Shown here: positions 4,584-27,249 of the stretch, piece by piece
Numbering within the stretch: position 1 is the stretch's first letter
Layout: each line of letters begins with the position of its first letter
Assembly: GCA_021773395.1 (NCBI GenBank)
Contig: JAJFKB010000025.1
Location: forward strand, 1-64,000
Reading direction: 5' to 3'
Source: Gammaproteobacteria bacterium
Lineage (GTDB): Bacteria; Pseudomonadota; Gammaproteobacteria; Pseudomonadales; IMCC2047
Length of the DNA stretch: 64,000 nucleotides
Notes under the pieces: generated by a model
The model's input: only the letters and a program-made list of their open reading frames with translations
Databases searched by the model: none
What the model was told of the DNA's origin: nothing
Program-made: the position numbers and the translations under genes

Positions 4584-4629
4584 ATTACCAACTTAGTAAT
4601 TGTTTTAGCCTATTAGTTCTATTTAATAT
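4584..4629 (+). promoter_or_regulatory. operator-like palindrome (site A) with overlapping promoter candidate
   Basis: ATTACCAACTTAGTAAT at 4584-4600 is a 17-base near-palindrome with one mismatched pair. It is followed at once by TTGTTT (4600-4605), which could act as a -35 box, with TAATAT at 4624-4629 as a -10 box after 18 bases. The same motif stands before the molybdenum hydroxylase operon (12007) and before the XRE regulator gene (27228). It lies about 290 bases before the lipoprotein gene and is the natural control site of the operon 4891-11828. Confidence 0.6.
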
Positions 4630-4890
4630 GTAACTGTATTTTTACCATTAAAATAAATTACAGAAATTGATGGTTTGAATAATTGTCTATTGAGCTTGCC
4701 ATAAGCAATGTTCAATAGCAGAAGACAAGAATCCATGGCAGATTGTAAAGCGGAATAATAATAGTCTTCGGTAACAATAAGTGAACTGGTTTTAACTGCT
4801 CGAGCTTTTTCGTTATAGAGCTTATTAACTGGCGGCAGAACCGAATTTGAATAGTGCCGGGTGCTGAGTAGTGCTTGGAGGGAGAACAAT

Positions 4891-5928
4891 TTGAAGCGAA
4901 TAATCAGCTCTTCTTTTGGGGAGAAGCTGTCGGTGTGTATTGTGCTGGCAGTCTGTTTCCTGGCTGGCTGCGAGGCCCCCTTAGTCTTAGATGGTGTAGA
5001 GCAGGAAAAAAATAAAGCTGTGCGCCGATCCGATAGCTTTCTTTCAATGTCTAGTAACAATTCCTCGTTGGTTGTAGTCGGCAATCGCGGTGCGACAGTC
5101 ATCTCTGCTGATAGCGGCCAGACCTGGCAGCGCAAGGATATCCCAAGCAAACCTTTCCTTATGGACGTCGATACCTGTCCAGACAACTCCTTTGTGGCCC
5201 TGGATTACCAGGCCAATGTTTGGCTTCTTAAAGATGCAGGGGCGGAGTGGGTTCGTAAGGATATGGGCTCAACTGAAACGCCTCAAGCAATTACCTGTGA
5301 TTTGAAAGGACGAATATGGGTTGTTGGCAGCTTTAGCAGTATAAATCTCAGTGATGATTCAGGGGAAACCTGGTCAGAGAATTCGCTTGATGAAGATTTG
5401 CATTTTACAACTGTTCAGTTTTTGGATGAGAGTAACGGTTTGCTGTTGGGCGAATTCGGTGTAGTAGCTAAAACCATTGATGGTGGTGAGAGCTGGGAAA
5501 TGCTGGATCCAATTCCAGATGAATTTTATCCTCATGATGCCTGGTTTAAATCTGTGCAGCAGGGTTGGGTCGTTGGGTTAAACGGGACCGTCTATTATAC
5601 CGGTGATGCAGGTGGTAGTTGGCAAAGTCAGGAAACCGGCACCAGTGATCCCATCTATAGAATCACGGCAAATGGTGGTTCTCTGTATGCAGTAGGTGGT
5701 AATGGTCTGGTGCTGAGTTGTGAGGGCTGTATTGATCAGGGAGTCTCTGCAAAATGGCAGAAAGTCGAGCATGGGTTGCCGATTCGGTTTTATTTGCGAG
5801 GGGTGGTTCCGTTTGATGACAAGCTCTGGATCGCTGGTGGAGCAGGAGCTTTGCATGAGGTGACGCTAAAAAACTCTGTCGCTCAGAATAATATGAATAA
5901 AGTTGTGGTTTCCGGAGGAGCAGAGTGA
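4891..5928 (+). CDS. YCF48/BNR-like beta-propeller lipoprotein
   Basis: Protein of 345 residues. It starts at TTG 4891 behind GGAGGGAG; from this start the N-terminus is a clean lipoprotein signal (KR, hydrophobic stretch, then LAGC with Cys27 as the lipidated residue). The mature part is a run of BNR/Asp-box repeats of the S-x-D-x-G-x-T-W type (ISADSGQTWQ, LSDDSGETWS, KTIDGGESWE, YTGDAGGSWQ), the hallmark of YCF48-like propellers. Such proteins commonly sit beside RND, DUF1302 and DUF1329 genes in Proteobacteria and may act as an accessory scaffold in the periplasm. Its GTGA overlap with the RND gene makes the two translationally coupled. Precise role unknown. Confidence 0.82.
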   Translation: MKRIISSSFGEKLSVCIVLAVCFLAGCEAPLVLDGVEQEKNKAVRRSDSFLSMSSNNSSLVVVGNRGATVISADSGQTWQRKDIPSKPFLMDVDTCPDNSFVALDYQANVWLLKDAGAEWVRKDMGSTETPQAITCDLKGRIWVVGSFSSINLSDDSGETWSENSLDEDLHFTTVQFLDESNGLLLGEFGVVAKTIDGGESWEMLDPIPDEFYPHDAWFKSVQQGWVVGLNGTVYYTGDAGGSWQSQETGTSDPIYRITANGGSLYAVGGNGLVLSCEGCIDQGVSAKWQKVEHGLPIRFYLRGVVPFDDKLWIAGGAGALHEVTLKNSVAQNNMNKVVVSGGAE

Positions 5929-8279
5929 ATAAGTTTAGTGAAGGCCTGCATCGTATCGACAAGTTTATTTTTGTCGCTCCGAAAATAACGCTACTTTTTG
6001 TTTTTGCAGTGACCGTATTTTTTGCGTTCCAGATACCTGGCGTGAGAATGGTTTCTGATTTTGCTGATTTGCTACCGCAGGAACACCCCTACATCAAGTT
6101 GCATAACGGCATTCGGGACACCTTTGGTGGTGCCAATAATATTATTCTTTCGGTAGAAGTTGATGAAGGCACTGTATTCACCGGTGATACGCTAGACCGT
6201 ATTCACCGGATTACGCAGGCGGTTGACTCAATAACCAATATTAACCACAACCTGGTAGCCAGTCTCACACACCGAAATACGCGCAAAGTTTGGTTGAGTG
6301 AAGAGGGGACGGTCAAATCCACGCCTCATTACAATCCGATGCACAATGCCTTTACAGAAGCTGAGCTAGAGCAGATGAAGGCGGATGTGATAGCTAACCC
6401 AAGGGTATTCGGACTACTAATTTCACCGGATTTAAAGTCGGCGCTGATTCGCGGCACATTGAATGAAGGCGAATTGGATTATGAAAAGGTATTCGACGAG
6501 CTACAGGTAATCAGGCAGGCAGAAGCGGCCCCGGGTATCAGCATTCACGCTACAGGTAATCCGGTTCTGGTTGGTTGGGTGTCGAGCTATGTTGGGCAGA
6601 TTGTTCAAATCTTCCTGTACACAGTGTTGATTATGCTCGTTCTGTTGATTGCTTATTTCCGCAAAGCCTACGGTATTTTGTTGCCAATAATGGGGATCGT
6701 ATTGACCAGTATCTGGGGTCTGGGGATGCTGTCATTGTTGGATTATAACCTTGATCCTTTGATGATGGTGGTGCCCTTCCTGATATCTGCTCGAGCCATG
6801 TCCCACGGTATTCAGCTGGTGGAGCGGTTTTATTACGAGCTGGCGGAACTAAAGGATAGTAAGCTCGCGGCACGAAAGGCCTTTGAAAATATCTTTAGAC
6901 CAGGGTCCCTGGGGGTTATTTCGGACGCTATTGGTTTATTGTTGATCTCTTTAGGTTCAGTGCCGATTAACGACAAGCTAGCGGTATATGCTTCGTTATG
7001 GGCACTATCAGTTATTGTGACCGTGCTGATCACTGTGCCCGTGTTGCTGGAAGTATTGCCACAACCGCGTAGTACTGAAATTCGGCATGGGCTGTTGCGT
7101 AAAATATTGCCACGTCTGGCTTCGATGGTTACAAGCCCAAAAGGGGTTGGTACCGTGCTGGTAACGACTGTGCTGCTTTACGGTATTGGCGGATATTTTT
7201 CTTCCTGGGTGCAAATTGGAGAGGCAGAGCCGGGCTCACCTTTGCTTTATTTGGACCACGATTATAATCTTTCTTCGAAAGCGATTAATGATGCGTTCCC
7301 TGGTTCAGAAGAGCTCTATGTGATTGGTTATACTGACGAAAAAGCCGGATTAAAGCGACCGGAAGTCTTGAAGGCACTGGCCGATTTTCAGGCGCATATG
7401 CTCAGCGATCCTGAATTGGGTGGCGCGAAAGGTCTGCCTAATCTGGTGACCGCCGTGAATCGTATGACACATTATGATGACCCTCGATGGATGGTTGTGC
7501 CGGATGATCCTCGAGTGGCTGGTGGACTAATGTTCATGTATATGATGTCCAGCCCGATCCCTGGTGCTTTGTTGGAGTACCTGGATCCCGACGAGCAGAA
7601 TGCGAATATGGTGTTCTATTATAAGGACCATAAGGGTGAGACCATTCGTCGTGCTGTGCATATGGTAAAGGAATGGATGGATTCACCTGCCGCACAGGTA
7701 GAGGGTTTTACGCTTAAATTAGCAGGTGGTCCTATCGGCGTTACTGCGGCGATTGACGAGGCTGCTTATGAAACAAACATTGTTGTTATACCGCTGGTGT
7801 TAGCGCTTATCTTTGTCTCTGTGACCTTTTTCTATTGGTCGCTGCATGCGGGCTGGATCATGATGCTGGCCATGTCCTTTGCGACAACTCTTTCTTATGC
7901 CTACATGGGTATTACCGGAATTGGTATTAACGTTAATACAGTGCCAATTATCGCGGTGGGCATTGGCGTTGGTATCGACTACAGTATTTATATTATGGAT
8001 CGTATTCGCTCGGAAATGGAGATGAGCGGCAATCTTGTGGACGCTGTGACACGAGCGATCAGCACTACCGGAGTCGCCATTGGGTTTACTGCGATGACAT
8101 TGATCGGTGGTGTCATTATGTGGGTGTTCTTATCTGACCTGCGTTTTCAGGCAGACGCGGCACTGCTGTTGATCGTGATGCTGGTTCTGAATGCGGTTGC
8201 AGCGATGGTGCTGGTACCGGCCTGGGTGTTGAAGTTTAAGCCAAACTTTATCACGGTGGCGTATAGCAAGAATTTGTAA
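5925..8279 (+). CDS. RND/MMPL-family exporter
   Basis: Protein of 784 residues with the RND layout in two halves: a membrane segment near residue 20, a large periplasmic loop (about 45-220), a block of five to six membrane segments (about 225-375), one near 400, a second periplasmic loop (about 430-610) and a final block (about 620-770). The second block holds GIGVGIDYSIYIMDR, the proton-relay/sterol-sensing-like segment of MMPL and hopanoid-type (HAE-3) exporters. Its length is below the roughly 1000 residues of AcrB-type pumps and fits lipid exporters. GTG 5925 overlaps the lipoprotein stop and is preceded by GGAGGAG. With the DUF1302 and DUF1329 genes it probably moves a hydrophobic compound across the envelope; direction and substrate are unknown. 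Confidence 0.88.
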   Translation: MNKFSEGLHRIDKFIFVAPKITLLFVFAVTVFFAFQIPGVRMVSDFADLLPQEHPYIKLHNGIRDTFGGANNIILSVEVDEGTVFTGDTLDRIHRITQAVDSITNINHNLVASLTHRNTRKVWLSEEGTVKSTPHYNPMHNAFTEAELEQMKADVIANPRVFGLLISPDLKSALIRGTLNEGELDYEKVFDELQVIRQAEAAPGISIHATGNPVLVGWVSSYVGQIVQIFLYTVLIMLVLLIAYFRKAYGILLPIMGIVLTSIWGLGMLSLLDYNLDPLMMVVPFLISARAMSHGIQLVERFYYELAELKDSKLAARKAFENIFRPGSLGVISDAIGLLLISLGSVPINDKLAVYASLWALSVIVTVLITVPVLLEVLPQPRSTEIRHGLLRKILPRLASMVTSPKGVGTVLVTTVLLYGIGGYFSSWVQIGEAEPGSPLLYLDHDYNLSSKAINDAFPGSEELYVIGYTDEKAGLKRPEVLKALADFQAHMLSDPELGGAKGLPNLVTAVNRMTHYDDPRWMVVPDDPRVAGGLMFMYMMSSPIPGALLEYLDPDEQNANMVFYYKDHKGETIRRAVHMVKEWMDSPAAQVEGFTLKLAGGPIGVTAAIDEAAYETNIVVIPLVLALIFVSVTFFYWSLHAGWIMMLAMSFATTLSYAYMGITGIGINVNTVPIIAVGIGVGIDYSIYIMDRIRSEMEMSGNLVDAVTRAISTTGVAIGFTAMTLIGGVIMWVFLSDLRFQADAALLLIVMLVLNAVAAMVLVPAWVLKFKPNFITVAYSKNL

Positions 8280-8473
8280 ACGGTAAATGGAAGTTTGCCG
8301 GTGAAGAACGGTAGAGAAACTGTGTCGTATAGGTCGAGCATTTTTCTATTAGGTAGTAGAAGAGTTGGTATAGTAAAAGGCTGTAAAAGGATCGTTTAAT
8401 ATCCGGGATTGTGTATGAGTTCCTAGATGTTATGACGTTAGTAAAAATAAAAGTCAATCAGGAGGGTAACCCT

Positions 8474-10489
8474 ATGAATAATAGGAGTCTATTTCGCCAG
8501 AGTCTGCTAGGCGGAGCCATTGCCATGTTAGGTCTTAGTGGTGGTGTGGCTACGGCACAAGGGACGCTGGAGACGCGGGGTTTTGTAGAACATTCCAGTC
8601 ATGTAAGAGATGGTATGGGGCTGACAAGATTTCGTAATCGCGTGCAGTTTGAGTTTAATGCGGATCTGGGTGATCGCGGTATTTTTTCCGATGTTAATAT
8701 TAATGGAACTTTACGTGCCACTTACGATGGTGTTTATGATTTTAATGATGAAGAGTATGGGGACGAGGCGGGTGACTCGTTAAGATTCCCTGCGCCTGGT
8801 AACCCGGCATTCTTTGATTATCTGAATGGCGGTGCATCTCCTTTTGCCCCACCCACCGATATTTCCTTTGTAGGGACTTTCGGGCCTGGTGCTTTAGGTT
8901 TGGACGGGGCGATACCTTTGCCGGGAGCCAACCCAATGATTGGCGGGACAGCCATTGTTAATAATCCGAATGAAGGGTTAAAGTTCCTGGGCGCTGATGT
9001 CCATAACAATCCGTATGGCGGCGGCGTATTAGCGTATCCGGCACGACCCTGTGATGATGATTCACGAGGTTGTCTGGATGACTATATGGACGCTGAGCTG
9101 GAAGAATTGCGCTTTCCGGATTTTAATGATGACCTGGATTTTCTCCGGGAATTGTACGTCGAGGGTACCATACCGCTAAGTAATGGGCATGAGATCGGCG
9201 TATCTTTAGGTCGTAAACAGGTTGTGTGGGGACGTACTGACCTATTCCGTGTTTTGGACGTTATCAACCCTGTGGATTTCGCAGCGAATAACATCTATGA
9301 GGAATTGGAAGACGCTCGTATCCCGATGCTGATGTTTACCGGCGAATATCGCATGGGTAGCGTGGGAGCATTTGATGACTTGAACTTCCAGGTAGTTTGG
9401 AAACTGGAAAAGCCGCGTCCGCATAATCTGGGTCAGGGCGGACAGCCCTATGCAATACTGGGCGCCGGAAATTTGTTCCGCTCGCTGGCTAACTGCTGGC
9501 AGAACGGTTGTACCTTCTGGAATTTTCCAGCAACAGGCACGGCCGTGGATTTCCCAAAAAATGTGATCGGTATTCGTGATGTTAATCGTCCAAGTGATGC
9601 GTTCAAAGAAGTCGGTTTCCGAGTGGAAGGTGTACTTAGAGGGGTTGGATTCTCTTTGAATGCGATGACCTACTTCTCGCAACTGCCTTCGTTACGCGGC
9701 GGCGTTTTAGCGGACAACCCCTTCACTCCACCGCCAGAAGCTCAGTTCTATCCCTACAATTTCGGGTTTGATATTGAGTTTCCGAGAATTGATTTGATCG
9801 GTGGTTCGGCTGACTTTTATGTGGAATCGCTGAAGTCCGCATTTCGTGTCGAGCTGGCTTATACTTCGGGTGAGGAGTTTGCCAACACTTTGGAAGAGCG
9901 CATGTTCTCTGATTCAGATGTAGTGCGATGGGTTATCGGTGTTGACCGTCCAACCTTTATTCCATTCCTAAGCAAAAACCGTTCAATCCTAGTTTCTGCT
10001 CAGTTGTTTGGGCAGCACTTGCTCGACCATGAAGAGGCTTCTGTTAACTCTGCAGGTATTCCAACCGGAAGAAAAGTGGGTATGCCGGATTGGGAAAATA
10101 ATTACATCTTTACTTTGTTGTTGCAGGCAAATTACATGAACGACCGAGTCACGCCACAGATTATTACGGCGTATGATTTCGGTGCGCGCAGTGGTGCTGT
10201 TGCGCCTACGGTCACCTGGAAGCCCGATAATAACTGGGTGGTGACTGCTGGCTTTAACATTAAGTGGGGTGAAGGTGCGCATGAGTATGATGACAACCTG
10301 TCGGCTAATATTTTTGCGCCCTATACATGCCCTCCTCCGATGGTGATGGGTGGAGCGCCAGAATGTTCCTCATCCTTTAGCAGCCTGGGTAAGAAAGGGG
10401 TTGAGCCCCTGGGCCGATTCCGTGCTGGTCCTATCGGTAATGCGATTAATGAGGATGAGTTCCAACTAACAGTTCGTTACCAGTTTTAA
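8474..10489 (+). CDS. DUF1302-family outer-membrane protein
   Basis: Protein of 671 residues, starting at ATG 8474 behind GGAGGG (8461-8466); the frame is open further upstream but that start would bury the signal peptide. A Sec signal ends near residue 28 (VATA-Q). The mature protein is rich in alternating strands with many D, N and aromatic residues, contains the family segment LGRKQVVWGRTDLFRVLDVI, and ends in a phenylalanine (LTVRYQF), the usual last residue of outer-membrane barrels. DUF1302 proteins are nearly always next to DUF1329 genes, as here. Probably the outer-membrane part of the envelope system served by the RND exporter. Confidence 0.88.
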   Translation: MNNRSLFRQSLLGGAIAMLGLSGGVATAQGTLETRGFVEHSSHVRDGMGLTRFRNRVQFEFNADLGDRGIFSDVNINGTLRATYDGVYDFNDEEYGDEAGDSLRFPAPGNPAFFDYLNGGASPFAPPTDISFVGTFGPGALGLDGAIPLPGANPMIGGTAIVNNPNEGLKFLGADVHNNPYGGGVLAYPARPCDDDSRGCLDDYMDAELEELRFPDFNDDLDFLRELYVEGTIPLSNGHEIGVSLGRKQVVWGRTDLFRVLDVINPVDFAANNIYEELEDARIPMLMFTGEYRMGSVGAFDDLNFQVVWKLEKPRPHNLGQGGQPYAILGAGNLFRSLANCWQNGCTFWNFPATGTAVDFPKNVIGIRDVNRPSDAFKEVGFRVEGVLRGVGFSLNAMTYFSQLPSLRGGVLADNPFTPPPEAQFYPYNFGFDIEFPRIDLIGGSADFYVESLKSAFRVELAYTSGEEFANTLEERMFSDSDVVRWVIGVDRPTFIPFLSKNRSILVSAQLFGQHLLDHEEASVNSAGIPTGRKVGMPDWENNYIFTLLLQANYMNDRVTPQIITAYDFGARSGAVAPTVTWKPDNNWVVTAGFNIKWGEGAHEYDDNLSANIFAPYTCPPPMVMGGAPECSSSFSSLGKKGVEPLGRFRAGPIGNAINEDEFQLTVRYQF

Positions 10490-10508
10490 GTAATCAGGAG
10501 AACGTAAA

Positions 10509-11828
10509 GTGAAAAATTTAACAAAAGTCGTTGCGCTGAGCAGCACGCTTTTATTAGCCGTGGGGGTGAACGCCGGTTCATTCACAGAAGCTGATATTGA
10601 GGGGTCTTTCTATCCCTATAAAAACTGGACGCCAACCTATGAAGGCTATGAGCCGGGCGTTGAAGTCAATCAGGCCAATGCGGATCAGTATAAAGAGATC
10701 ATGGATGAAGCGCTTTATAGATTTGTGAAAGACGGTTGGGTATCTATAAAGACCAAGCCGACTACGGATTTTCCCTTAACGGATGACTATGTCAATGCAA
10801 CGCGTAAATACGCCGGTGATGTGACAGTTAATGACAAGGGAACACTGGATAACTATGTGGCGGGTCGAGCCTTTCCTGTTGAGCCTGATGCCAATGATCC
10901 GAAAGCAGGTCTGAAACTAGTGTGGAACTATCAATATGGTTTCAACTCGGGTGACTCGGTAACCATCCATCCTTTCTGGTGGACGTTCCGTAATATGAAT
11001 AATGGTAAAGTGGAGCGCGTGCTTAAGTTTGAGTGGCACTTTATGAACTATTCGCACCGGGTGAGTTTTGATCCGAAGCCTAAGTTTGATAAAAATCCAT
11101 CAGAGGTGTTCCGCGGAATTTATTCGTTTGTGAAGGAACCTTATGACCTCTCTAATACGCAGCTGTTGATCCACCGCCATGAGGATGACACCAAGCGTGA
11201 TAATGCCTGGTTGTACCTTGGCTTTCAGCGCCGTGTGCGACGTCTGGCCACCGGTCAGATTACTGATGCCTTTCTGGGTAGCGACTTGATGATCGAAGAC
11301 TTTGAGGGTTACAACGGTCGTGTATCTGACTACACATGGGAGTATGGTGGTACACGCAATCTGCTGTTGCCTTTTTACTACCACAACGACCTGGAAAAAT
11401 TTTCCAGTGAGCCAGCAGATGATCCGGACGGATTCCGTTTTGTTGATGTGCACGGTAAAGGCAACTGTTTCCCCAATGTAACCTATCAGCTACGTAAAAC
11501 CTTTACTTTGATTGGTAAGCCCAAGGATCCTAGCCATCCGCTAAGCAAACGAGTAATTAACCTTGATGCGCAAACCATGGTAATGGCAACGCTGGTGGTT
11601 TATGATCGCAAGGGTGATATGTGGCGCTGGTTCCCGATTGGTAAAGCCCACTCGGATCACCACCTGCCAGGTAACAAGGGTAAAGGTGTGCCGGTGGAGG
11701 ACTTTGCTGTACTACTTGATGTTCAGGCAAAACACTGTACTACGCTGCAGTTTAAAAGCTTAATTACAGACGAGAGTAATCAGCCTAACCTGTTTACCGT
11801 ACAAAACCTGAGGAAAGCGGGTCGTTAA
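10509..11828 (+). CDS. DUF1329-family periplasmic protein
   Basis: Protein of 439 residues with a Sec signal ending near residue 22 (VNA-G). It starts at GTG 10509 behind AGGAG, 19 bases after the DUF1302 stop. The body has family features: EYGGTRNLLLPFYYHNDL in the middle and a C-terminal part with conserved aromatics. DUF1329 proteins have been likened in fold to LolA/LolB lipid carriers, so a role in carrying a hydrophobic ligand between the inner-membrane RND protein and the outer-membrane DUF1302 protein is a reasonable inference. Last gene of the operon, followed by a strong terminator. Confidence 0.88.
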   Translation: MKNLTKVVALSSTLLLAVGVNAGSFTEADIEGSFYPYKNWTPTYEGYEPGVEVNQANADQYKEIMDEALYRFVKDGWVSIKTKPTTDFPLTDDYVNATRKYAGDVTVNDKGTLDNYVAGRAFPVEPDANDPKAGLKLVWNYQYGFNSGDSVTIHPFWWTFRNMNNGKVERVLKFEWHFMNYSHRVSFDPKPKFDKNPSEVFRGIYSFVKEPYDLSNTQLLIHRHEDDTKRDNAWLYLGFQRRVRRLATGQITDAFLGSDLMIEDFEGYNGRVSDYTWEYGGTRNLLLPFYYHNDLEKFSSEPADDPDGFRFVDVHGKGNCFPNVTYQLRKTFTLIGKPKDPSHPLSKRVINLDAQTMVMATLVVYDRKGDMWRWFPIGKAHSDHHLPGNKGKGVPVEDFAVLLDVQAKHCTTLQFKSLITDESNQPNLFTVQNLRKAGR

Positions 11829-11852
11829 TTTAGCAGTCTAGCTTGATATTTT

Positions 11853-11908
11853 AGGGCAGTGCGCCTGCCGGATTTTTCCTAATCCAAATTGCACTGCCCT
11901 TGTTTTTT
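11853..11908 (+). terminator. rho-independent terminator of the envelope operon
   Basis: AGGGCAGTGC at 11853-11862 pairs perfectly with GCACTGCCCT at 11891-11900, followed directly by TTGTTTTTT. The loop is long (28 bases) but the GC-rich stem and the T tract are typical. Confidence 0.8.
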
Positions 11909-12006: not shown

Positions 12007-12051
12007 ATTACTAACTTAGTAATTGTTTACTGAGTGCTTGGTAATTAGGAT
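12007..12051 (+). promoter_or_regulatory. operator-like perfect palindrome (site B) with overlapping promoter candidate
   Basis: ATTACTAACTTAGTAAT at 12007-12023 is a perfect 17-base palindrome around a central C. TTGTTT (12023-12028) follows, and TAGGAT (12046-12051) lies 17 bases further on, so the palindrome would overlap the -35 box. A second half-site, TTGGTAAT at 12038-12045, starts 22 bases after the first TTAGTAAT, about two helical turns. It stands about 200 bases before the molybdenum hydroxylase operon. Confidence 0.62.
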
Positions 12052-13097: not shown

Positions 13098-13118
13098 CTA
13101 GTAGTTGAGGACAATGTA

Positions 13119-13613: not shown

Positions 13614-13626
13614 CGGAGGATTGATC

Positions 13627-17188: not shown

Positions 17189-17192
17189 GCAA

Positions 17193-18821: not shown

Positions 18822-18826
18822 CTTTT

Positions 18827-20050
18827 ATGAGTAAAACGATTACCCGGGTTCGTGATCAATTTCCCATTCTACAGCGGTCAATTAATGGGCATCCGCTGCA
18901 TTACCTGGACAATGCAGCAACCACTTTTTGTCCTGACACTGTGCTCGATAAAGTGTATGAATTTGAAACGGGGTATCGAGCGAATGTTGCACGCGGGGTG
19001 CATCGGTTGGCGGCGGAGGCAACTGACGCCTATGAATCGGCAAGAGCCAGCGTGGCGCGCTATATTAACGCCTTTGATCCCAGTGAGGTTGTTTTTACTT
19101 CAGGTACAACAGCCGCAGTAAATCAGCTTGCCTACAGCTTGGGTGAAAGCATCGCTGCTGGAGATGAAATATTGGTATCGATGATCGAACATCACAGTAA
19201 TTTCGTTCCCTGGCAAATGCTATGTAAAAGAAAGGGCGCAAAACTACAGCTGATTCCTGTCGATGAAAATGGTGTTCTGGATCTATCAAACCTGTCTTCT
19301 TTAATTAACGAACGAACCAGAATTGTTGCCGTTACACAGGCCTCAAATGTCACTGGGGAGATGCCCGATTTGGGCCTTTTGGCGCAAGCTGCCCATCAGG
19401 TGGAAGCGAAGCTGGTTGTCGATGGAGCACAGGCCGTGCCGCATGGGCCGGTTGATGTGCAGGCGCTCGGCGCTGACTTTTATGTGTTTTCCGGGCATAA
19501 GTGTTATGCGCCAACCGGGGTTGGCGTACTTTGGGGAAAAGGCGCATTGTTGAGTGAACTGCCAGAATTTATGTATGGTGGGGGTATGGTTGAACGGGTC
19601 ACACCAGCTGGAACCCGGTTTTTGGAAACCAATCAGCGCCTTGAAGCGGGAACGCCACCCATAGCGCAAGCGATAGGGCTAGGTGAAGCGGTCGAATGGC
19701 TGATGATGTTGCCCTGGGTTGACATTAAGACGCATGAAGCGAAATTGCTGGGGCGACTGGCGAACGAGTTGCCCTCTATTGCTGGTTTGCGGGTGCTCGG
19801 TCCTGCTTTGGAGGGTGCACGCTTGCCCATTGTTTCATTTGATATTGAAGACTGTCATCCGCATGATATTTGTCATTTGCTGGATCAGCGAGCGGTGGCT
19901 TTGCGTGGTGGTCACCACTGTGCCCAGCCTTTAATGGATGCATTGGATGTGATGGCGACCACGAGGGCAAGTTTTGCGGTATTTAATACCGATGCAGATG
20001 TTGATGCTTTGCTAGAGGGATTGCATGAGGCGGTGGATTTTTTAAGATGA
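18827..20050 (+). CDS. SufS-type cysteine desulfurase
   Basis: Protein of 407 residues of the group II (SufS/CsdA) cysteine desulfurases. The PLP lysine is K225 in SGHKCYAPTG, and the persulfide-carrying cysteine is C365 in GGHHCAQP, the short SufS-type loop. It removes sulfur from cysteine and holds it as a persulfide. The start lies 5 bases after the MocA-like gene and the end overlaps the SufU-like gene by 4 bases, so all are one unit. No other suf or isc gene is nearby. In Rhodobacter capsulatus a dedicated NifS-like protein works with XdhC to sulfurate the molybdenum cofactor; by analogy this copy probably serves the hydroxylase rather than general Fe-S assembly. Confidence 0.9.
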   Translation: MSKTITRVRDQFPILQRSINGHPLHYLDNAATTFCPDTVLDKVYEFETGYRANVARGVHRLAAEATDAYESARASVARYINAFDPSEVVFTSGTTAAVNQLAYSLGESIAAGDEILVSMIEHHSNFVPWQMLCKRKGAKLQLIPVDENGVLDLSNLSSLINERTRIVAVTQASNVTGEMPDLGLLAQAAHQVEAKLVVDGAQAVPHGPVDVQALGADFYVFSGHKCYAPTGVGVLWGKGALLSELPEFMYGGGMVERVTPAGTRFLETNQRLEAGTPPIAQAIGLGEAVEWLMMLPWVDIKTHEAKLLGRLANELPSIAGLRVLGPALEGARLPIVSFDIEDCHPHDICHLLDQRAVALRGGHHCAQPLMDALDVMATTRASFAVFNTDADVDALLEGLHEAVDFLR

Positions 20051-20478
20051 ATAATAGTCTCTATCACGAAGACATAAAGACACTGGCCCAAGCCAATGTA
20101 ACGAAAGAGCCACTGCAGCAGCCTGATCGTACAATCACCCTTGATAATCCTCTTTGCGGTGATCGTGTGAGTATTCAGTTAAGGCTCGATAACGGCAAAA
20201 TAGCGGATGAAACGCACCAGGTAAAAGGTTGTTTGCTCTGCAGGGCTTCTGCAAATGCCATAGCCAACTCAGTCATTGATGCGACCGAGGCGGATATTCT
20301 ACGGGTGGAGCAGGCTCTATGCGCCATGCTTAAGGGCGAGGGTATGGGTGATTGGCCCATTCAGGGCTGGGAAGCTTTGGATGTGTTCAGGCCCGTAGCG
20401 GCCCATAAAAGCCGTCATGATTGTGTGATGTTGCCTTTTAAGGCTTTAAGGAAAATGCTGCAGCTTAAAGAAGCTTAA
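20047..20478 (+). CDS. SufU/IscU-like sulfur-transfer or scaffold protein
   Basis: Protein of 143 residues with the IscU-fold motifs NPLCGD (C37, D39), KGCLLCRASANAIANS (C62) and a late HDCVMLPF (C126), the three cysteines and one aspartate that hold zinc in SufU. An additional cysteine, C65, sits in the GCLLC motif. SufU accepts persulfide sulfur from SufS. It is coupled to the SufS-like gene by an ATGA overlap. It is the last gene of the operon, followed by a long perfect hairpin. It may pass sulfur to the XdhC-bound cofactor or build the 2Fe-2S clusters of the hydroxylase; the sequence does not decide between these. Confidence 0.85.
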   Translation: MNNSLYHEDIKTLAQANVTKEPLQQPDRTITLDNPLCGDRVSIQLRLDNGKIADETHQVKGCLLCRASANAIANSVIDATEADILRVEQALCAMLKGEGMGDWPIQGWEALDVFRPVAAHKSRHDCVMLPFKALRKMLQLKEA

Positions 20479-20495
20479 TGTTTTACGCGAATTGT

Positions 20496-20532: not shown

Positions 20533-20556
20533 GAAAAATTGGAGAGTGTTTGCCGG

Positions 20557-21117
20557 CTAGGCGCGTGGATGTGCTGATGCAATACTGGAAGCGTGATCGT
20601 ACAGCCCGGCCATTATGCTAATTACTTTGGATGCAATGACCACATCCTCATCAAAATCTTTAATCGAATCTGTTAGCGTTAGCAGCAGATCCCTTCTGAA
20701 TTCCGCAAACTGATCGGTGATCTGACGGCCTTTCGAGGTAATGGTATAGCAAGCAGAGCGTTTGCTGTCGCGCTTGTCGGAACGTTTAATAAGTTGTGCA
20801 TTGACGAGCTTTCTCAGCGAGTATTGTAGATTGGAAATATCGTCCCTGTTCATAAGCCTGGCTATATCAGATATACTTTTTGGTCGGTCATGCATCCTGA
20901 TCAGGTGCAACACAGCATTTTCCATGGCCGATAAACCCCCCTCTACACAACACGCCAGGCAGTCCTTTTGCCAGCGGTCGAATGCTGCGGCGACTCGCAT
21001 AACAGAGAACTCAAAGTCGGTAAAATTGATTTCACGCTCATTGGTAGCTAAATGCCATTCCATTTGCAGGTTGGCGCTAATAGCTTTATGTTTCGAAATC
21101 AAGATGCAGTCTCCCAA
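20557..21117 (-). CDS. MarR-like winged-helix transcriptional regulator
   Basis: Protein of 186 residues. The centre (about residues 60-135) is a MarR-type winged helix: helix GGLSAMENAVLHLIRMHDRP, recognition segment ISDIARLMNRDDISNLQYSL, and wing LIKRSDKRDSKRSACYTIT. Predicted helices at both ends would form the dimer interface. It includes a CLACC cysteine cluster near residue 54 that could make it redox-responsive, though this is only suggestive. The gene faces away from the DMSO-reductase-family operon at 21619, with about 500 bases between their starts, so that operon is its most likely target. Confidence 0.8.
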   Translation of the reverse strand: MGDCILISKHKAISANLQMEWHLATNEREINFTDFEFSVMRVAAAFDRWQKDCLACCVEGGLSAMENAVLHLIRMHDRPKSISDIARLMNRDDISNLQYSLRKLVNAQLIKRSDKRDSKRSACYTITSKGRQITDQFAEFRRDLLLTLTDSIKDFDEDVVIASKVISIMAGLYDHASSIASAHPRA

Positions 21118-21618
21118 ATATGTTTATATGGATCAATTATAAGCATACCCGACTATAAAGTGTAATAAACCGTTTTTATTTAGAATATAAGCATCAATGT
21201 TATGATTAATTTTGGGCAAAGTTGGGGGCACATTTTCTTAGTCTGAAGTATTGTTTATTTTTAGCAAAAGCAGTAGTAAACTTAGCCTTCTGTACTCCTT
21301 ACGGTCACGCAATATGTCTCCAGGATTTGTTGCTGTATCTCTTTCTCAGGGCCCAGTCTGCGGTCTGTGTCTAAGCTCGCTTATGCGCGACAAGCCTAAC
21401 TTAATCCAAACAAAAATTAATAGTCCATAATCTACTCCAAGATAAGGGTTTATGGATCCATTTCAATGGTTTGGTTTGCGTTTGCGGTCTGTGATGGGGG
21501 TTTACAATAATTAAATTTAATGTTAAATTTACAGTTAAATTGATATAACTATAAAATAGCAAAAATATACACGTTCATTTAACACCTTAAACTGATAGCA
21601 ATACTGAGAGGAATAGTG
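21118..21618. other. divergent control region between the MarR-like gene and the Mo oxidoreductase operon
   Basis: No gene seen. Near the MarR side are two direct copies of ATAAGCAT (21139-21146 and 21187-21194), 48 bases apart, possible regulator sites. TGCGGTCTGTG occurs at 21359-21369 and again at 21483-21493. The last 100 bases before the operon are very AT-rich with repeated GTTAAATT elements. A good ribosome-binding site, GAGAGGA, precedes ATG 21619. Confidence 0.45.
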
Positions 21619-24246
21619 ATGACAAATCCATCTCCTACGGCTAATTCGATCAAGTCCGGTCGCTGGGTGCGCTCGACTTGCAAGATGTGCCTTCACTCCT
21701 GTTCAAACATGATTCATGTTACCGATGACGGGATTATCAATAAAATCGAGGGAGACCCCACGAATCCGTCGAATAATGGCAAGCTTTGCCCGAAGGGTAA
21801 TTCCGCGATTTTACGACATTACGATCCGCGTCGTTTTAAGGAACCTTTAAAACGTACCAATCCGGAAAAAGGGCCAGGTATTGACCCTAAATGGGAACCT
21901 ATCAGTTGGGATGAGGCGTTTGAAATAACCGCCAGAGAAATTAAAAAATCTCTAGATGAAGATCCTCGGAAAATTCTACCTTCACTGGAAGATTTCCAGA
22001 AGATGCATATCTGGTTCTGGCCGCTGGCAATCGGATGCCACAACTTTTATCAATCGGGTGGAACCATGTGTGGTGGTGCTTATCACCCCATGAATGGATA
22101 TATCCATTCTGCGTTTGGTTGTGCAAACGATGCAAAATACTGTAATTATTGGATCAATAATGGAACCGGTGATGGTTTCTCATCTCACCTGCATGCCGCC
22201 GCGCAATCCAACTGGGTCGCTAAAGCACGTATAGATCGTGGTATGCGAGTCGTTTCCGTTGAACCAAGGCTCTCCATTGGTTCTGCGAAAGCTGACGAAT
22301 GGGTTCCCATCAGACCGGCAACCGACAGGCATTTTGCTCTGGGTATGTCTCATGTGCTGGTCAATGAAGGACTTTGTGATTTTGATTTTCTGCGCAAAGA
22401 TAGTAACGCACCTTACCTGGTAGGGCCGGACGGCTATTTTGTCAGGGATACGGAAAAACAGATTTATGTTTGGGACAGCAAAGACAATTGCGCCAAACTT
22501 TGGAATGACCCGACGCTGGAAAATGATAACCTGGCATTGGAAGGTAATTACACGGTCAATGGTGTTGAGTGCCGACCCGCTTTCCAGGTATATAAAGATA
22601 TTCTCGCAGAATGCTCTCCGGAAGAGATGGAGAAAATCACTACGGTTCCTGCTGAGACTACGCGACGTATCGCCAGGGAGTTTTCCGAAGCTGCGAAAAT
22701 TGGCCAGACGATTAAGATTGAAGATGGCCGAACTGTACCGCTCAGACCCGCTGCGTATAACTACTACCGAGGAGCGCAGGGACGTAAACTGGGTGCCCAA
22801 ACCAACCAGGCTTTCAAGCTGGTGAACATGCTGATCGGAAATATCGACACCCCGGGAGGACACATGGGTGTGACCATCGATGATGGTCAGGTCGATAATA
22901 ACCACGTTGAAATGGGTGAGTGTGGTCAGATGCTGGGTACCCCGCACCAGCTCGGGCATATGCCAGAATTTGCTTATCCCACCAACGAATATCACCTCGC
23001 GTCGCACTTCCCCAATGGGGTGAATGCGCCGCACCTGAATTTGCTGGTACATGAAAACCGTGAATATTGGGGGGTGGAATTTACCCCGGATGTGATTGTT
23101 AACTGTCATTCCAACCCGGTATGGTCAATTCAGGGTCCTCGCGAAAAATGGGTTAAGTTCCTCAAGGATATGCGCTTTATTGTGTGCGTAGATGTCGTGC
23201 CTAACGAGATGACAGACTTTGCTGACGTGATTCTACCCTCAAGTGATGTGCTGGAAACCTGGAACTGCACCATGATTGAGCCGCCCCACACGGAAGGTCA
23301 GTGTTTCCGCCAGCCGGCGACTGATCCAATCTACAACACCAAGAGCGAAGAAGAGATATTCTATGAACTCTCCGAGCGTCTGGGTTGTCTGGAGGCATAT
23401 AACAGCGTCATTAATATGATTCTCGGTTTTGAACAGAAGCCGGAATTGCAGTTAGATCTGGATAAGAAGTATACCGACCGCGAGATTGCACGTCGTAAAG
23501 GGCTGCTATGGAACGGTAAGGATATTGATTGGTATATGGAGCATGGCCACTCGGTAACCGAGCGTCGCCTGGATAAATGGTACCGTCCCTGGGAAGGTAT
23601 GCGCCTTAATTTCTACATTGAAGATATGTTGAAAGAGCGCGATGGCTTGAAAGCGAAGATGGAGGCTATGAAAACGCCATATATCAATGACTGGCCTTTT
23701 GATGATTTTCAGCCTTTACCCACGGCAAGACTGGATACACTGCATACCCTGCCAGAGGAATACAACCTCTACGCTATCACCTTTAAGGATATTCAGCTGA
23801 ACTTTGGTGAAAGCCTGAGTAACCCCTGGATTAGAGATATCGTTTTCCGTGACCCAGTGCATACCGGTTTGTTGATTAACACCGCAACGGCAGCAAAAAT
23901 GGGATTCGAGGCTGGTGATGTGGTTAAAGTAGAGTCTCCATATGGACATCTCTATGGGCGTTTGCAAACGACTGAAGGTATGCACCCTGACGCAATTGGC
24001 GTATCTAACGCGTTGTCTCGTACTAAGAGCGAAAATACCTATGTAGCCATGTCCGGCGGGCACTTTAACGATATGCTGCCCTACGATATGGAAAACACAG
24101 ATGCCGCCAGTGGGCAGCCTGAAACGACTACTAAAGTTAAGCTGACCAAACTCGATGATTGGCCTGATTTCCTTAAACAAGGCGGCTCGATTTACGACTT
24201 TGTCGACGAACTTGAAACTAAAAAAGGTAAAGGGGGGCAACACTAA
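21619..24246 (+). CDS. DMSO-reductase-family molybdopterin oxidoreductase, catalytic subunit
   Basis: Protein of 875 residues of the bis-MGD (complex iron-sulfur molybdoenzyme) family. The N-terminus carries a 4Fe-4S site with Cys21, Cys24, Cys28 and Cys57 (C-x2-C-x3-C, then KLCPKGNS). Cys151 in GGTMCGGAYHP is at the place of the molybdenum ligand. The segments NMLIGNIDTPGGHMGV and the ADVILPSSDVLE region are typical, as is the C-terminal molydopterin-dinucleotide-binding domain (about 710-840). No twin-arginine signal is present, so the enzyme faces the cytoplasm, unlike most respiratory members. The genes for a ferredoxin subunit and a membrane anchor follow, with a TAATG overlap at 24244. 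FdhD downstream implies that a sulfurated cofactor is needed. Substrate unknown. Confidence 0.88.
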   Translation: MTNPSPTANSIKSGRWVRSTCKMCLHSCSNMIHVTDDGIINKIEGDPTNPSNNGKLCPKGNSAILRHYDPRRFKEPLKRTNPEKGPGIDPKWEPISWDEAFEITAREIKKSLDEDPRKILPSLEDFQKMHIWFWPLAIGCHNFYQSGGTMCGGAYHPMNGYIHSAFGCANDAKYCNYWINNGTGDGFSSHLHAAAQSNWVAKARIDRGMRVVSVEPRLSIGSAKADEWVPIRPATDRHFALGMSHVLVNEGLCDFDFLRKDSNAPYLVGPDGYFVRDTEKQIYVWDSKDNCAKLWNDPTLENDNLALEGNYTVNGVECRPAFQVYKDILAECSPEEMEKITTVPAETTRRIAREFSEAAKIGQTIKIEDGRTVPLRPAAYNYYRGAQGRKLGAQTNQAFKLVNMLIGNIDTPGGHMGVTIDDGQVDNNHVEMGECGQMLGTPHQLGHMPEFAYPTNEYHLASHFPNGVNAPHLNLLVHENREYWGVEFTPDVIVNCHSNPVWSIQGPREKWVKFLKDMRFIVCVDVVPNEMTDFADVILPSSDVLETWNCTMIEPPHTEGQCFRQPATDPIYNTKSEEEIFYELSERLGCLEAYNSVINMILGFEQKPELQLDLDKKYTDREIARRKGLLWNGKDIDWYMEHGHSVTERRLDKWYRPWEGMRLNFYIEDMLKERDGLKAKMEAMKTPYINDWPFDDFQPLPTARLDTLHTLPEEYNLYAITFKDIQLNFGESLSNPWIRDIVFRDPVHTGLLINTATAAKMGFEAGDVVKVESPYGHLYGRLQTTEGMHPDAIGVSNALSRTKSENTYVAMSGGHFNDMLPYDMENTDAASGQPETTTKVKLTKLDDWPDFLKQGGSIYDFVDELETKKGKGGQH

Positions 24247-24857
24247 TGAAACGAGGTATGGTCTTCGATTTACGTCGTTGCATTGGCTGTAATGCCTGTG
24301 TAGTCGCCTGTAAACAGGAAAACTCATTGCCCGATGGCGTATTTTTCACCAAGACTCTGAGTGAAGAGTATGGTGTATACCCTGCGGCGAATAGAGTATA
24401 CATTCCTACACTTTGTAACCATTGCGAAGATGCGCCATGTGAAAAGGTTTGTCCGAGTGGCGCTACCTATACGCGTGATGATGGTATTGTCATGGTGGAT
24501 GATGCATTGTGTATCGGCTGTGGTACCTGCGCGGTTGCCTGTCCTTACGATCAGCGTTCACAAATGGATGCTGATAACCTTAAGGATGGTATGTATGGCG
24601 GTGGCAATCTGACGGAATTTGAAAAGGATGGCTATGGTCGCTGGACGCCGGGAACTGTCACAAAGTGTGATTTCTGTAGTCAGCGAGTTGATGTTGGACT
24701 GGAGCCGGCTTGTGTAGTCACCTGTCCTACTGACGCCAGAATATTTGGTGATCTGGATGATCCAAATTCGGCGCCTAATAAGCTTATCAGAGAGCGCGGT
24801 GGTCAGCCTGCTTTGGCAGAGAAAAACACCAAACCGAAAGTTTATTACGTGGACTAA
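24246..24857 (+). CDS. four-cluster ferredoxin subunit (DmsB/NrfC-like)
   Basis: Protein of 203 residues with four 4Fe-4S cysteine groups: CIGCNACVVACK, CNHCEDAPCEKVCP, CIGCGTCAVACPYD and CDFCSQRVDVGLEPACVVTC. This is the electron-wire subunit of DMSO-reductase-family complexes, joining the catalytic subunit to the membrane anchor. No signal peptide, in agreement with the cytoplasmic placement of its partner. The start codon overlaps the catalytic subunit stop by one base, so the two are made together. Confidence 0.93.
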   Translation: MKRGMVFDLRRCIGCNACVVACKQENSLPDGVFFTKTLSEEYGVYPAANRVYIPTLCNHCEDAPCEKVCPSGATYTRDDGIVMVDDALCIGCGTCAVACPYDQRSQMDADNLKDGMYGGGNLTEFEKDGYGRWTPGTVTKCDFCSQRVDVGLEPACVVTCPTDARIFGDLDDPNSAPNKLIRERGGQPALAEKNTKPKVYYVD

Positions 24858-24903
24858 AGCGTAGCTAAACAGAGATTATTAATTTATCGACTTGGTAACT
24901 ATC

Positions 24904-25818
24904 ATGGCAAATGAAAATCAAATCGTAGGTGATACCTTTAAAGTAGGGTATCGATTCCAGCGTTATTGGGATACTTCAATGGCAGCAGCTTTTTTCTGTT
25001 GCGAACTGGGTGCTGGGCTGTTTTTGCTGTCACAGTACTTTGATTTTGCGCTGGGAATGCTCGTTGGGCTGCTGTTTGCTGGCGTAGGAAAACCCTATTT
25101 TCACCTGGCACATATGGGTGTGCCATCCAGGGCGTGGCGAGCAATGCTCAGACCTGATCGCTCCTGGATCAGTCGTGGTCTGATCGGCATTATGTTTTTC
25201 GTCGGTGCAGGCGTCGCATATCTGCTGGAATTCCAGTTTGGGTTCTTAACCGGTATTTTTGGCGAGGCGACCGGCGGCTTCTTCTATCAAGTGGCACTGG
25301 TCATTTCGTTTGCCGCAGGTGTGTTGGTGATGGCCTATCAGGGTTTTGCGATGGCTCATTCGAGTTCGTTTGCGCTCTGGAATACAGGTTTAATGCCGAT
25401 TAGCAGTATCGCCTATGCGGTCACGGCTGGGCTAGCATCTATTCTGGTACTGGGATGGGGAGCGCTGGCTCCAGAAACAAGTAAAATGCTGGTTAACTTT
25501 ACACTGGTAATGTTGTTGGTCGACCTATGTGTAGTAATGAGTTTATTGCATGGTGCGTTTCATGGCACTACCGGTGGGCGACAATCAGTAGACCTGTTAT
25601 TAAAAGGCGTTTATGCAACGCCCTTTATCGGATTGGTAATTGCTGTGGGTATTGCTTTGCCTGCTTTAGTTCTGTGGCTGGCAGGTTCAAGCTATGCTGC
25701 CGTGTTACTGGCTGCGGTGTCAATCCTCGCTGGTTTCTTCACCTATCGTGTGTTAGTGTTTAAAGCAGCACTCTATGAGCCGATTATCAGCTTTAAACCG
25801 AGAACAGCAAACATATAA
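24904..25818 (+). CDS. NrfD/PsrC-like membrane anchor subunit
   Basis: Protein of 304 residues with about eight membrane segments, matching the NrfD/PsrC/DmsC type of quinone-reactive anchor. It starts at ATG 24904 (MANENQIVGDTFKVGY); an upstream TTG adds only four residues. The early segment GVGKPYFHLAHMGVPSRAWRAM is typical of the NrfD family (the GRPxRxW-like turn after the second helix). It would pass electrons between the quinone pool and the ferredoxin subunit. The operon order catalytic, ferredoxin, anchor is standard. Confidence 0.87.
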   Translation: MANENQIVGDTFKVGYRFQRYWDTSMAAAFFCCELGAGLFLLSQYFDFALGMLVGLLFAGVGKPYFHLAHMGVPSRAWRAMLRPDRSWISRGLIGIMFFVGAGVAYLLEFQFGFLTGIFGEATGGFFYQVALVISFAAGVLVMAYQGFAMAHSSSFALWNTGLMPISSIAYAVTAGLASILVLGWGALAPETSKMLVNFTLVMLLVDLCVVMSLLHGAFHGTTGGRQSVDLLLKGVYATPFIGLVIAVGIALPALVLWLAGSSYAAVLLAAVSILAGFFTYRVLVFKAALYEPIISFKPRTANI

Positions 25819-25826
25819 TCACAATA

Positions 25827-25856
25827 CCCACAGCTTCGAATATGCGGAGCTGTGGG
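25827..25856 (+). terminator. GC-rich hairpin after the anchor-subunit gene
   Basis: CCCACAGCT (25827-25835) pairs with AGCTGTGGG (25848-25856), extended inward by three more pairs to a 6-base loop. No T tract follows, so it may be an RNA-stabilising or attenuating hairpin rather than a full terminator. Confidence 0.5.
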
Positions 25857-25861
25857 GTTAT

Positions 25862-25894
25862 CCCGAAAGTGGTGAACCCCATTCGGGCGTTCAC
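25862..25894 (+). promoter_or_regulatory. two mutually exclusive hairpins just before fdhD
   Basis: GTGAAC (25872-25877) pairs with GTTCAC (25889-25894) with an inner CCC/GGG, while CCCGAA (25862-25867) can instead pair with TTCGGG (25882-25887). The two structures share bases and cannot form together. They end two bases before ATG 25897, where no clear Shine-Dalgarno is seen, so folding could control fdhD translation. Confidence 0.4.
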
Positions 25895-25896
25895 TT

Positions 25897-26805
25897 ATGA
25901 AGAAAGAATCCTCAGAAATTAGTACTCTCTGTCCCGTGCCTCGCAAGGGCGTTCATGTTGTGTCTGCATTGCGCATACCGAAACCAGGTGAGCCAGCCAT
26001 TGAAGAGCAGTGCCAAGTGGTTGAAGAAGATGCGCTGACGCTTGATATAGAAAATATTGGCAAGTATACCCTGATGTGGACACCCACAGAAAACATCAAC
26101 GGCGCAATTGGGTTTACTGATGTCGATGGTGTACTGGGCGAATCGGAAAACCCGGAAGCGCTTGCGCTGGCCGCTGGCTTCGCATACACCGAGGGCATTA
26201 TACGAGGACTCAGTGACATTTTGACGATGGCGGTTTGCCCCGATGAGCCGGGGGTTGTCAAAATGCAGCTGGTGAATCCCGAGCTGGCGGCGGTGCGGCG
26301 TCGTGATGTCATTATCACCAGCTCCTGTGGTATCTGTGGCAAGCGCGATATTGTTGAAAACAACGCCTACGGCCTGCAATCAGTGACGGATGAGATGCGC
26401 ATGGGTGAGCAGGGATTTGCACATTTGATGCAGCAAATGAAAGAGGGCCAACAGATTTTCCAGCAGACCGGAGGCAGTCATGCGGCGGCTATTTTTTCAG
26501 CTGAAGGAAGCATTTTCTCCGTAGCCGAGGATTTGGGACGTCATAACGCGCTGGACAAAGTGATCGGTCGCCATTTGTTGGAGCAAAAGAGCTTTCGCAA
26601 TTGCGGGGTGCTGATGTCCAGTCGCCTAAGCCTTGAAATGGCTGTCAAAGCGGTGCGTTCAGGGCTCGAAGTGATAGCCGCAGTTAGCGCACCTACCTCC
26701 CTGGCTATTGATGTTGCCGATACTTTTGGTGTCACGCTATGCGGATTCGTGCGGGGCGAAAGAGCCACGGTATTTACTCATCCGCACCGGGTGATTAGCC
26801 GCTAG
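25897..26805 (+). CDS. fdhD: FdhD-type sulfurtransferase for bis-MGD enzymes
   Basis: Protein of 302 residues. FdhD takes sulfur from a cysteine desulfurase and places it on the molybdenum of bis-MGD enzymes such as formate dehydrogenase. Family motifs are seen: the loop SSCGICGKRDI with the two sulfur-relaying cysteines (usual form CGVCG), TGGSHAAAIFS (usual TGGLHAAA), EDLGRHNALDKVIG and SSRLSLEMAVKA. It lies directly after the DMSO-reductase-family operon, which marks that enzyme as its client. Hairpins upstream cover the start region. Confidence 0.92.
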   Translation: MKKESSEISTLCPVPRKGVHVVSALRIPKPGEPAIEEQCQVVEEDALTLDIENIGKYTLMWTPTENINGAIGFTDVDGVLGESENPEALALAAGFAYTEGIIRGLSDILTMAVCPDEPGVVKMQLVNPELAAVRRRDVIITSSCGICGKRDIVENNAYGLQSVTDEMRMGEQGFAHLMQQMKEGQQIFQQTGGSHAAAIFSAEGSIFSVAEDLGRHNALDKVIGRHLLEQKSFRNCGVLMSSRLSLEMAVKAVRSGLEVIAAVSAPTSLAIDVADTFGVTLCGFVRGERATVFTHPHRVISR

Positions 26806-27188
26806 TCATCGTCATCCATAAGCTGTCTAGTAACACTGATCGCTCAACGCCAAGTGTTTGACCAGCCCGAATATTTCACCAGTATGCCTAAAATAGCTCT
26901 GAAGCCCCTATACATATTGGCTTTGATCTAAAATCGACTCGGTGATGGTTTGTCAGCGGCATGTGGCTGGTCAGATTCAAATTGGTTCTGTACTGAATTG
27001 AACGCACAGGCTCCCTGCACCTCAGAATAACTGCACTTGCGGTCGCGAGCACACTCAAATTCAACAAAGCCCGCTTTAAAATCCTGGTGCCCGGTTAAAA
27101 ATCCGGGCTAGCCTCCAGTTTGGCGCAGAAGGTCTTTGCGATGCTTCGCCCATTTCCCTTTTTCTCCTCATTCCCCTCATTCCCCTTG
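26806..27188. other. intergenic region with no gene seen
   Basis: Frames are short and broken on both strands and no known RNA is recognised. The last part becomes very pyrimidine- and T-rich before the regulator's operator array begins at 27189. Confidence 0.5.
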
Positions 27189-27249
27189 TTAGTAATATGT
27201 TCTATTCCTTTTTTAGTAATAATTTTAATTACCTATTTAGTTATTGTTT
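27189..27249 (+). promoter_or_regulatory. operator array (site C) upstream of the XRE regulator gene
   Basis: Three copies of TTAGTAAT or TTAGTTAT start at 27189, 27213 and 27237, exactly 24 bases apart. The third forms part of the near-palindrome ATTACCTATTTAGTTAT (27228-27244) followed by TTGTTT, the same layout as sites A (4584) and B (12007). It ends about 80 bases before the regulator start, as expected for autoregulation. Confidence 0.62.

Follow-up and report, generated by a model that had tools for sequence, protein, structure and literature searches.

Does one regulator govern three gene units that lie close together in a single bacterial genome? We examined a 64,000-nucleotide stretch from a gammaproteobacterium (assembly GCA_021773395.1, contig JAJFKB010000025.1, positions 1 to 64,000; hereafter the window), in which the gene of an XRE/MmyB-type regulator, an envelope operon of the Ame type and a molybdenum hydroxylase operon are each preceded by a 17-bp palindrome built on, or close to, the frame ATTAC-N7-GTAAT. 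An earlier note on this DNA had proposed that the regulator controls all three. The elements in question are:

4584-4600, no strand assigned: operator site 1, ATTACCAACTTAGTAAT, one position pair unpaired, arms ATTAC and GTAAT exact
12007-12023, no strand assigned: operator site 2, ATTACTAACTTAGTAAT, perfect palindrome, arms ATTAC and GTAAT exact
27228-27244, no strand assigned: operator site 3 (putatively autoregulatory), ATTACCTATTTAGTTAT, three pairs unpaired, one mismatch to the frame
27204-27220, no strand assigned: weak, degenerate fourth copy, ATTCCTTTTTTAGTAAT, one mismatch to the frame
27327..28190, plus strand: XRE/MmyB-type regulator, with a helix-turn-helix (HTH) domain (helix SARHISFIETGR) and a PAS-like ligand domain, MLTR_LBD

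The window letters contain the three palindromes at 4584, 12007 and 27228, and the copy at 12007 is indeed perfect. A TTGTTT said to follow each palindrome is present at all three, but it shares its first T with the last T of the palindrome (4600, 12023, 27244), so that the letters 3' of each site are TGTTT. All three sites have TTAGT in common. As claimed, they precede gene starts, with gaps of 290 nt (TTG at 4891), 198 nt (ATG at 12222) and 82 nt (ATG at 27327); the 27204 copy and the 27228 site form a tandem 24 bp apart. The window has two exact frames where 0.07 would be expected by chance, and six with up to one mismatch where 1.49 would be (two of the six, at 2562 and 20621, lie outside the sites discussed here); none of 100 shuffles reached either count. 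The full operator strings were not found among the literature matches listed.

The N-terminal part of the 27327 protein matches an XRE-type HTH (PF01381, HTH_3, E 1e-10, residues 13-64) and its C-terminal part matches MLTR_LBD over the whole profile (PF17765, E 2.7e-21, 76.8 bits against a cut-off of 26.3), which bears out its identification as XRE/MmyB-like. It is the only MLTR_LBD protein found in its own genome at E <= 0.001. A separate pattern scan of genome contigs for relatives of the regulator matched 51 stretches, none of which was confirmed. The structural match is a distant one, to MltR (3pxp, E 1.3e-4). In the accessible part of PMC3406030, MltR of Chloroflexus aurantiacus is described with a fatty acid modelled in its pocket; regulators of this MltR/MmyB-like kind likewise combine an XRE HTH with a PAS-like ligand domain and are expected to sit as dimers on a palindrome. 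Unlike the MltR of that source, the window regulator, distant from it in sequence, stands in a gammaproteobacterium-like genome beside a molybdenum hydroxylase module. The excerpt of PMC12565409 available to us reports autoregulatory palindromes upstream of XRE regulators' own genes, with 9 of 10 tested pairs bound and 223 motif clusters, and does not deal with wider regulons. The same principle would apply here, where two operator-like palindromes, each one mismatch from the frame, stand before the regulator's own gene.

We sought homologues of the regulator in 195 genomes of the order, of which 30 matched at 1e-20, the window's own genome included, and examined the DNA upstream of each of the 29 homologues from other genomes that came with a locus (two more rows came without one). 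These are distant relatives, 32-40% identical to the window protein. Nevertheless, the exact frame lies within 300 nt upstream in 18 of the 29, mostly as ATTACCTnnnAGGTAAT; 21 have it with up to one mismatch (one of them, L024, looks accidental) and 22 with up to two. The rest of the same loci yielded one exact frame and three with up to one mismatch in 98,020 positions. The frame goes together with the recognition helix: all 18 homologues with an exact frame have a [RK]HxSF helix, and 18 of the 20 with that helix have an exact frame. At locus L020, whose helix letters are identical to those of the window protein (SARHISFIETGR), the operator reads ATTACCTCGGAAGTAAT. Of the four homologues with a SPRHISR helix, three (L027, L029 and L033; not L031) have a different palindrome before their genes, GACAYCnnATGTC. 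A change of helix thus seems to go with a change of operator, and the regulator family may have this palindrome as a second operator type. Across 22 homologue genomes, ATTACCTnnnAGGTAAT with up to one mismatch occurs at 0 to 6 places each, at least one in 21 of the 22, and its reversed control at 0 to 3.

Seven named records from a plasmid collection (taken from the 8 listed of 69 matching, a second Cupriavidus metallidurans being omitted) extend the pattern. The exact frame is found in three, from Azospirillum oryzae, Lichenicola cladoniae and Rhizobium beringeri, each time ahead of the leading gene in a run on one strand to which the regulator gene also belongs. The records from Cupriavidus metallidurans and Nonomuraea gerenzanensis have it with one mismatch and that from Cupriavidus campinensis with two; Streptomyces has four mismatches at best. 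In the Azospirillum, Lichenicola and Rhizobium loci (L186, L188, L190) the genes that the frame precedes are NTF2-like or carboxymuconolactone decarboxylase-like and share a same-strand run with the regulator. The inner bases of the homologue operators vary (for example ATTACCTCGCCAGTAAT), in agreement with the variation among the window sites; the latter have the same frame as the homologue operators, not the same consensus.

Because no second MLTR_LBD protein was found in its genome, and because its relatives carry the frame ahead of their gene or of the run that contains it, the regulator is best read as controlling both itself and the two operons. We therefore regard it as quite probable that the sites are operators of the 27327 regulator, through which it controls its own gene, the Ame-type cassette and the hydroxylase operon. 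In such a circuit a regulator dimer would bind the 17-bp frame through its HTH domains, and the PAS-like domain would sense a hydrophobic or aromatic ligand that changes the regulator's hold on DNA. Three units would respond: the regulator gene through 27204 and 27228, the envelope cassette through 4584 and the hydroxylase operon through 12007. By eye, the TTGTTT overlapping the 4584 and 12007 sites is a possible -35 element, with TTTAAT 16 nt on (4622) and TAGGAT 17 nt on (12046), respectively; consensus promoter scans called no promoter at the 4584, 12007 or 27228 sites. Because the sites adjoin this possible -35 element, activation is weakly favoured, and the regulator may act as an activator that touches the polymerase.

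Downstream of the 4584 site lie the envelope operon and the repeat that follows it:

4891..5928, plus strand: YCF48-like protein, AmeC-type (Pfam PF14870, E 7.9e-14)
5925..8279, plus strand: RND/MMPL transporter, HAE3-like, AmeD-type (Pfam PF03176)
8411..10489, plus strand: DUF1302 protein, AmeA-type, outer membrane by analogy (Pfam PF06980, E 9.2e-38)
10509..11828, plus strand: DUF1329/LolA-like protein, AmeB-type, periplasmic by analogy (Pfam PF07044, E 9.3e-67)
11853..11900, plus strand: terminator-like inverted repeat, AGGGCAGTGC ... GCACTGCCCT, then TGTTTTTT, picked out by eye

Pfam confirms the reading of these genes as a YCF48-RND-DUF1302-DUF1329 series. The TTG start of the first gene (reading frame listed from 4861) lies behind what looks by eye like a GGAGG-like site, and the best NCBIfam match of the transporter, HAE3 (TIGR00921), scores below its cut-off. 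All four Ame gene kinds are present in one cassette, whose composition matches that given for AmeABCD of Castellaniella defragrans in the available portion of PMC6394551: a DUF1302 outer-membrane protein, a DUF1329 periplasmic protein, a YCF48-type protein (COG4447) and an HAE3 RND transporter. That source ties AmeABCD to monoterpenes; unlike the cassette it describes, the one in the window adjoins a molybdenum hydroxylase, with which it would share an operator. The inverted repeat and its T residues separate the two operons, and a promoter of its own is therefore to be expected for the hydroxylase operon; of the repeat, the scan reports no more than a shorter stem (11855-11869). Directly before the envelope operon lie two overlapping reading frames (2692-4306) without a Pfam match, which look alike by eye. 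In three loci of the Neptuniibacter type (L068, L069, L095), parts of a second, divergent Ame-type cassette lie about 6-10 kb before the hydroxylase; it is 27-34% identical where matched, the DUF genes lower.

Downstream of the 12007 site the window contains:

12222..13097, plus strand: molybdenum hydroxylase subunit binding flavin adenine dinucleotide (FAD) (PF00941, PF03450)
13119..13613, plus strand: molybdenum hydroxylase [2Fe-2S] subunit (PF01799, PF00111)
13621..15987, plus strand: molybdenum hydroxylase large subunit (PF20256, PF02738)
16143..20478, plus strand: accessory genes for XdhC N and C parts, a MocA/MoeA-like protein, a class-V aminotransferase (cysteine desulfurase-like) and NifU_N
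20557..21117, minus strand: MarR-like regulator (HTH_27, E 1.8e-16)
21616..26805, plus strand: second molybdenum enzyme operon, with a PhsA-like large subunit, Fe-S subunit, NrfD subunit and FdhD

Pfam likewise confirms the hydroxylase operon with its FAD, 2Fe-2S and molybdenum subunits. XdhABC, 4-hydroxybenzoyl-CoA reductase and quinoline 2-oxidoreductase have the same three subunits, with XdhC-type genes adjoining, and the closest solved protein to the large subunit is 4-hydroxybenzoyl-CoA reductase (E 1.5e-103). Xanthine dehydrogenases have GGGFGGKE where the window protein has GGGFGARLGL, the purine-binding Glu following GGGFGGK. Unlike xanthine dehydrogenases, the window subunit has GGGFGARL, which lacks this Glu, and it scores 650.5 bits against the XdhA equivalog cut-off of 780. 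As the large subunits of both molybdenum enzymes are under every NCBIfam cut-off listed, neither xanthine nor formate dehydrogenase was kept as a name. The PhsA-like large subunit of the second enzyme presumably resembles PadB. No operator frame was found upstream of the second molybdenum operon, where the best match has three mismatches. The module is not set apart as an island by base composition (G+C 0.465-0.529 in its genes, 0.474-0.53 in the surroundings).

A scan of genomes for the hydroxylase gave 49 loci, and the Ame-type cassette and/or the second molybdenum operon adjoin it in Halioglobus, Aromatoleum, Neptuniibacter, Pontibacterium and Thiodiazotropha, in a betaproteobacterium, in Deltaproteobacteria and in Emcibacter-type Alphaproteobacteria. 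Many of these contigs end early, and absences were not counted. The module of cassette, hydroxylase and second molybdenum enzyme therefore recurs in Alpha-, Beta-, Gamma- and Deltaproteobacteria, including Desulfobacterales, and the proposal that the two operons form one system is supported. Elsewhere the module lies near an AraC-like gene (Emcibacter-type loci) or a XylR-like gene (Neptuniibacter), both named by eye, or near a MarR-like gene. In plasmid records, the hydroxylase has relatives in 100, all below 60% identity and at most 39.1% among the eight matches listed.

Several results weigh against the proposed circuit, and the first group concerns how distinctive the sites are. The three-site consensus, which we wrote ourselves, gave 5 matches with up to one mismatch over both strands of the 3.80 Mb own genome, corresponding to these 3 places only; its reversed form gave 8. 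Rarity alone thus proves little, and the argument rests on the position of the sites and on the relatives. A looser motif occurs with up to one mismatch at 16 places in the same genome, and their distribution favours the circuit: 4 are within these 22.7 kb, and of the other 12, 11 were inspected, 7 lying in reading frames and 4 not. Against this, the motif was written with the window sites in view, and with up to two mismatches it does not discriminate (187 places, 286 for the control). Some of the homologues share a genus with others, so that the 29 cannot count as independent cases, and two of them (L030, L032) have an RHxSF helix without a site. The window's inner bases differ from those of ATTACCTnnnAGGTAAT, whose inner CT and AG are not matched. 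A weight matrix built from 16 homologue operators (near-duplicates L007, L009, L013, L021 and L023 left out) ranks 27228 fifth or sixth in the window and 4584 ninth or eleventh, depending on the pseudocount, with 12007 below fifteenth, and the hits that it places highest do no better than chance; the inner specificity may have changed. Further sites in the relatives lie within reading frames in 9 of 12 inspected cases (not in L171, L172 and L178), and in those genomes the regulator may thus have few targets outside its own locus.

The second group concerns conservation, and here the expectation that relatives keep the regulon is not supported. The regulator was found in none of 24 hydroxylase-bearing genomes at E <= 1e-15, a set that held no positive control, the same query having found its own gene and others in the order-wide search. 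The exact site was found before none of 70 homologous operons; two have it with one mismatch, one of these starting on the start codon (L073 and L095 are apparently one contig, so that one locus is counted twice among the 70). Nor did the three other genomes of the family (83-95% complete) yield the regulator at E <= 1e-20 or the hydroxylase at 1e-100. In the genomes examined, regulator and operator were not found apart; that operons lacking the regulator also lack the exact site is a point in the circuit's favour. Since both partners are missing together, the circuit is limited to the window's lineage rather than refuted. What the earlier note described is likely a local circuit, and is not right as a conserved regulon: the single MLTR_LBD protein and the relatives' frame speak for control of the regulator gene and both operons, but the pairing with the module is not conserved. 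The module thus appears to be conserved, and the circuit over it to be specific to this lineage.

We considered whether another protein might own the sites. In one alternative the palindromes are bound by the MarR-like protein at 20557, which would govern both operons and have the XRE gene merely as a further target. MarR proteins often bind palindromes, and in some relatives it is the MarR-like gene that accompanies the module, being 63% identical in Halioglobus (L046, 18077-18622) and about 40% in the alphaproteobacterial L052 and L054; MarR proteins also control auxin catabolism loci, according to the part of PMC9613470 at hand. However, no frame with fewer than three mismatches lies before the MarR-like gene or the divergent operon, the Halioglobus locus with the 63% identical copy has no frame with up to one mismatch before the homologous operons, and this account leaves unexplained why XRE/MmyB genes elsewhere carry the frame. 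We consider it unlikely. About equally improbable is that the regulator controls only itself while another palindrome-binding protein binds the two operon sites. The relatives, with a site beside the regulator and their further sites mostly inside reading frames, are as this would predict, and 27228 outscores both operon sites on the homologue matrix, whereas the exact ATTAC and GTAAT arms at 4584 and 12007, and the TTAGT common to all three sites, speak against it. That the three sites reflect chance or a copied promoter sequence without a common regulator is the least probable account: the reversed pattern outnumbers the pattern in the genome, no consensus promoter is called at the sites, and by eye the 4584 and 12007 stretches are identical at 23 of 24 bases, as expected of a copied promoter, but the frame and arms recur in 18 of 29 homologues and no shuffle gives two exact frames.

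What the module might do, under the regulator in the window's lineage, is suggested by its neighbours elsewhere. Seven loci (L054, L055, L057, L072, L076, L077, L084) encode a protein of the isatin hydrolase type no more than 10 kb from the hydroxylase, and the recurrence of the module with this gene nearby suggests oxygen-independent indole oxidation. For the L054 protein the match to 5nmp has an E-value of 1.7e-100, and structures under any other name than isatin hydrolase reach 1.4e-26 at best. An indolepyruvate-oxidoreductase-like alpha gene is present in four of the seven loci (L054, L057, L084, and L076, where a contig end cuts it), and a beta gene in three. Of 40 module genomes, 21 (counting the one that supplied the query) have an isatin hydrolase match of at least 1e-80 quality, against 3 of 274 control genomes, all drawn from the window's class alone; eight Emcibacter-type and six Aromatoleum genomes are among the 21, which are therefore not independent.

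In such a pathway the molybdenum hydroxylase would make oxindole from indole with water, and the second molybdenum enzyme would oxidise the CH2 beside the carbonyl to give isatin. PadBCD likewise oxidises a CH2 next to a carbonyl, in phenylacetyl-CoA. Isatin hydrolase would then open the ring, the indolepyruvate-oxidoreductase-like enzyme would form 2-aminobenzoyl-CoA, and the Ame-type cassette would handle the hydrophobic substrate. The accessible text of PMC6221969, a 2018 review, gives oxindole, isatin and anthranilate as reported intermediates of anaerobic indole breakdown, expects the oxygen to come from water and terms the mechanism 'a black box'. The gene set of the loci bearing isatin hydrolase fits this order of intermediates, and the isatin hydrolase genes beside the hydroxylase are candidate genes for the oxygen-independent route. 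Among the matches listed, a literature search showed no paper titled for anaerobic indole degradation genes; subscription journals lie mostly outside it, and this absence is unproven.

For the window's own genome the indole idea fares less well. It has no isatin hydrolase match at 1e-5, with a query that matches other genomes, which speaks against the pathway in this genome, and the isatin step there would need another enzyme. Nor was isatin hydrolase found at 1e-80 in the nine genomes of Halioglobus, Halieaceae, Thiodiazotropha, Pontibacterium and Neptuniibacter, the window's nearer module relatives. The own genome does contain indolepyruvate-oxidoreductase-like alpha and beta genes (C2:327793-331460; L135, L136), the alpha 60% identical to that of L054, but these adjoin genes named by eye as TetR-like, TonB-receptor-like and quinoprotein dehydrogenase-like and would at most be candidates for a part in this pathway. 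It is only tentatively, and with more doubt than belief, that we propose the module as the missing gene set for oxygen-independent indole breakdown, its transport and first step being placed in the window's lineage under an XRE/MmyB sensor of indole or a related compound.

Together the data point to ATTAC-N7-GTAAT as an operator frame at the level of the family, for the MmyB-type regulators of proteobacteria. This family operator is of wider interest, as is the conserved module, some of whose neighbours point to indole. The frame is also carried by relatives of the regulator, which makes the circuit directly testable. The window seems to offer a case in which a conserved catabolic module has come under the command of an MmyB-type regulator.

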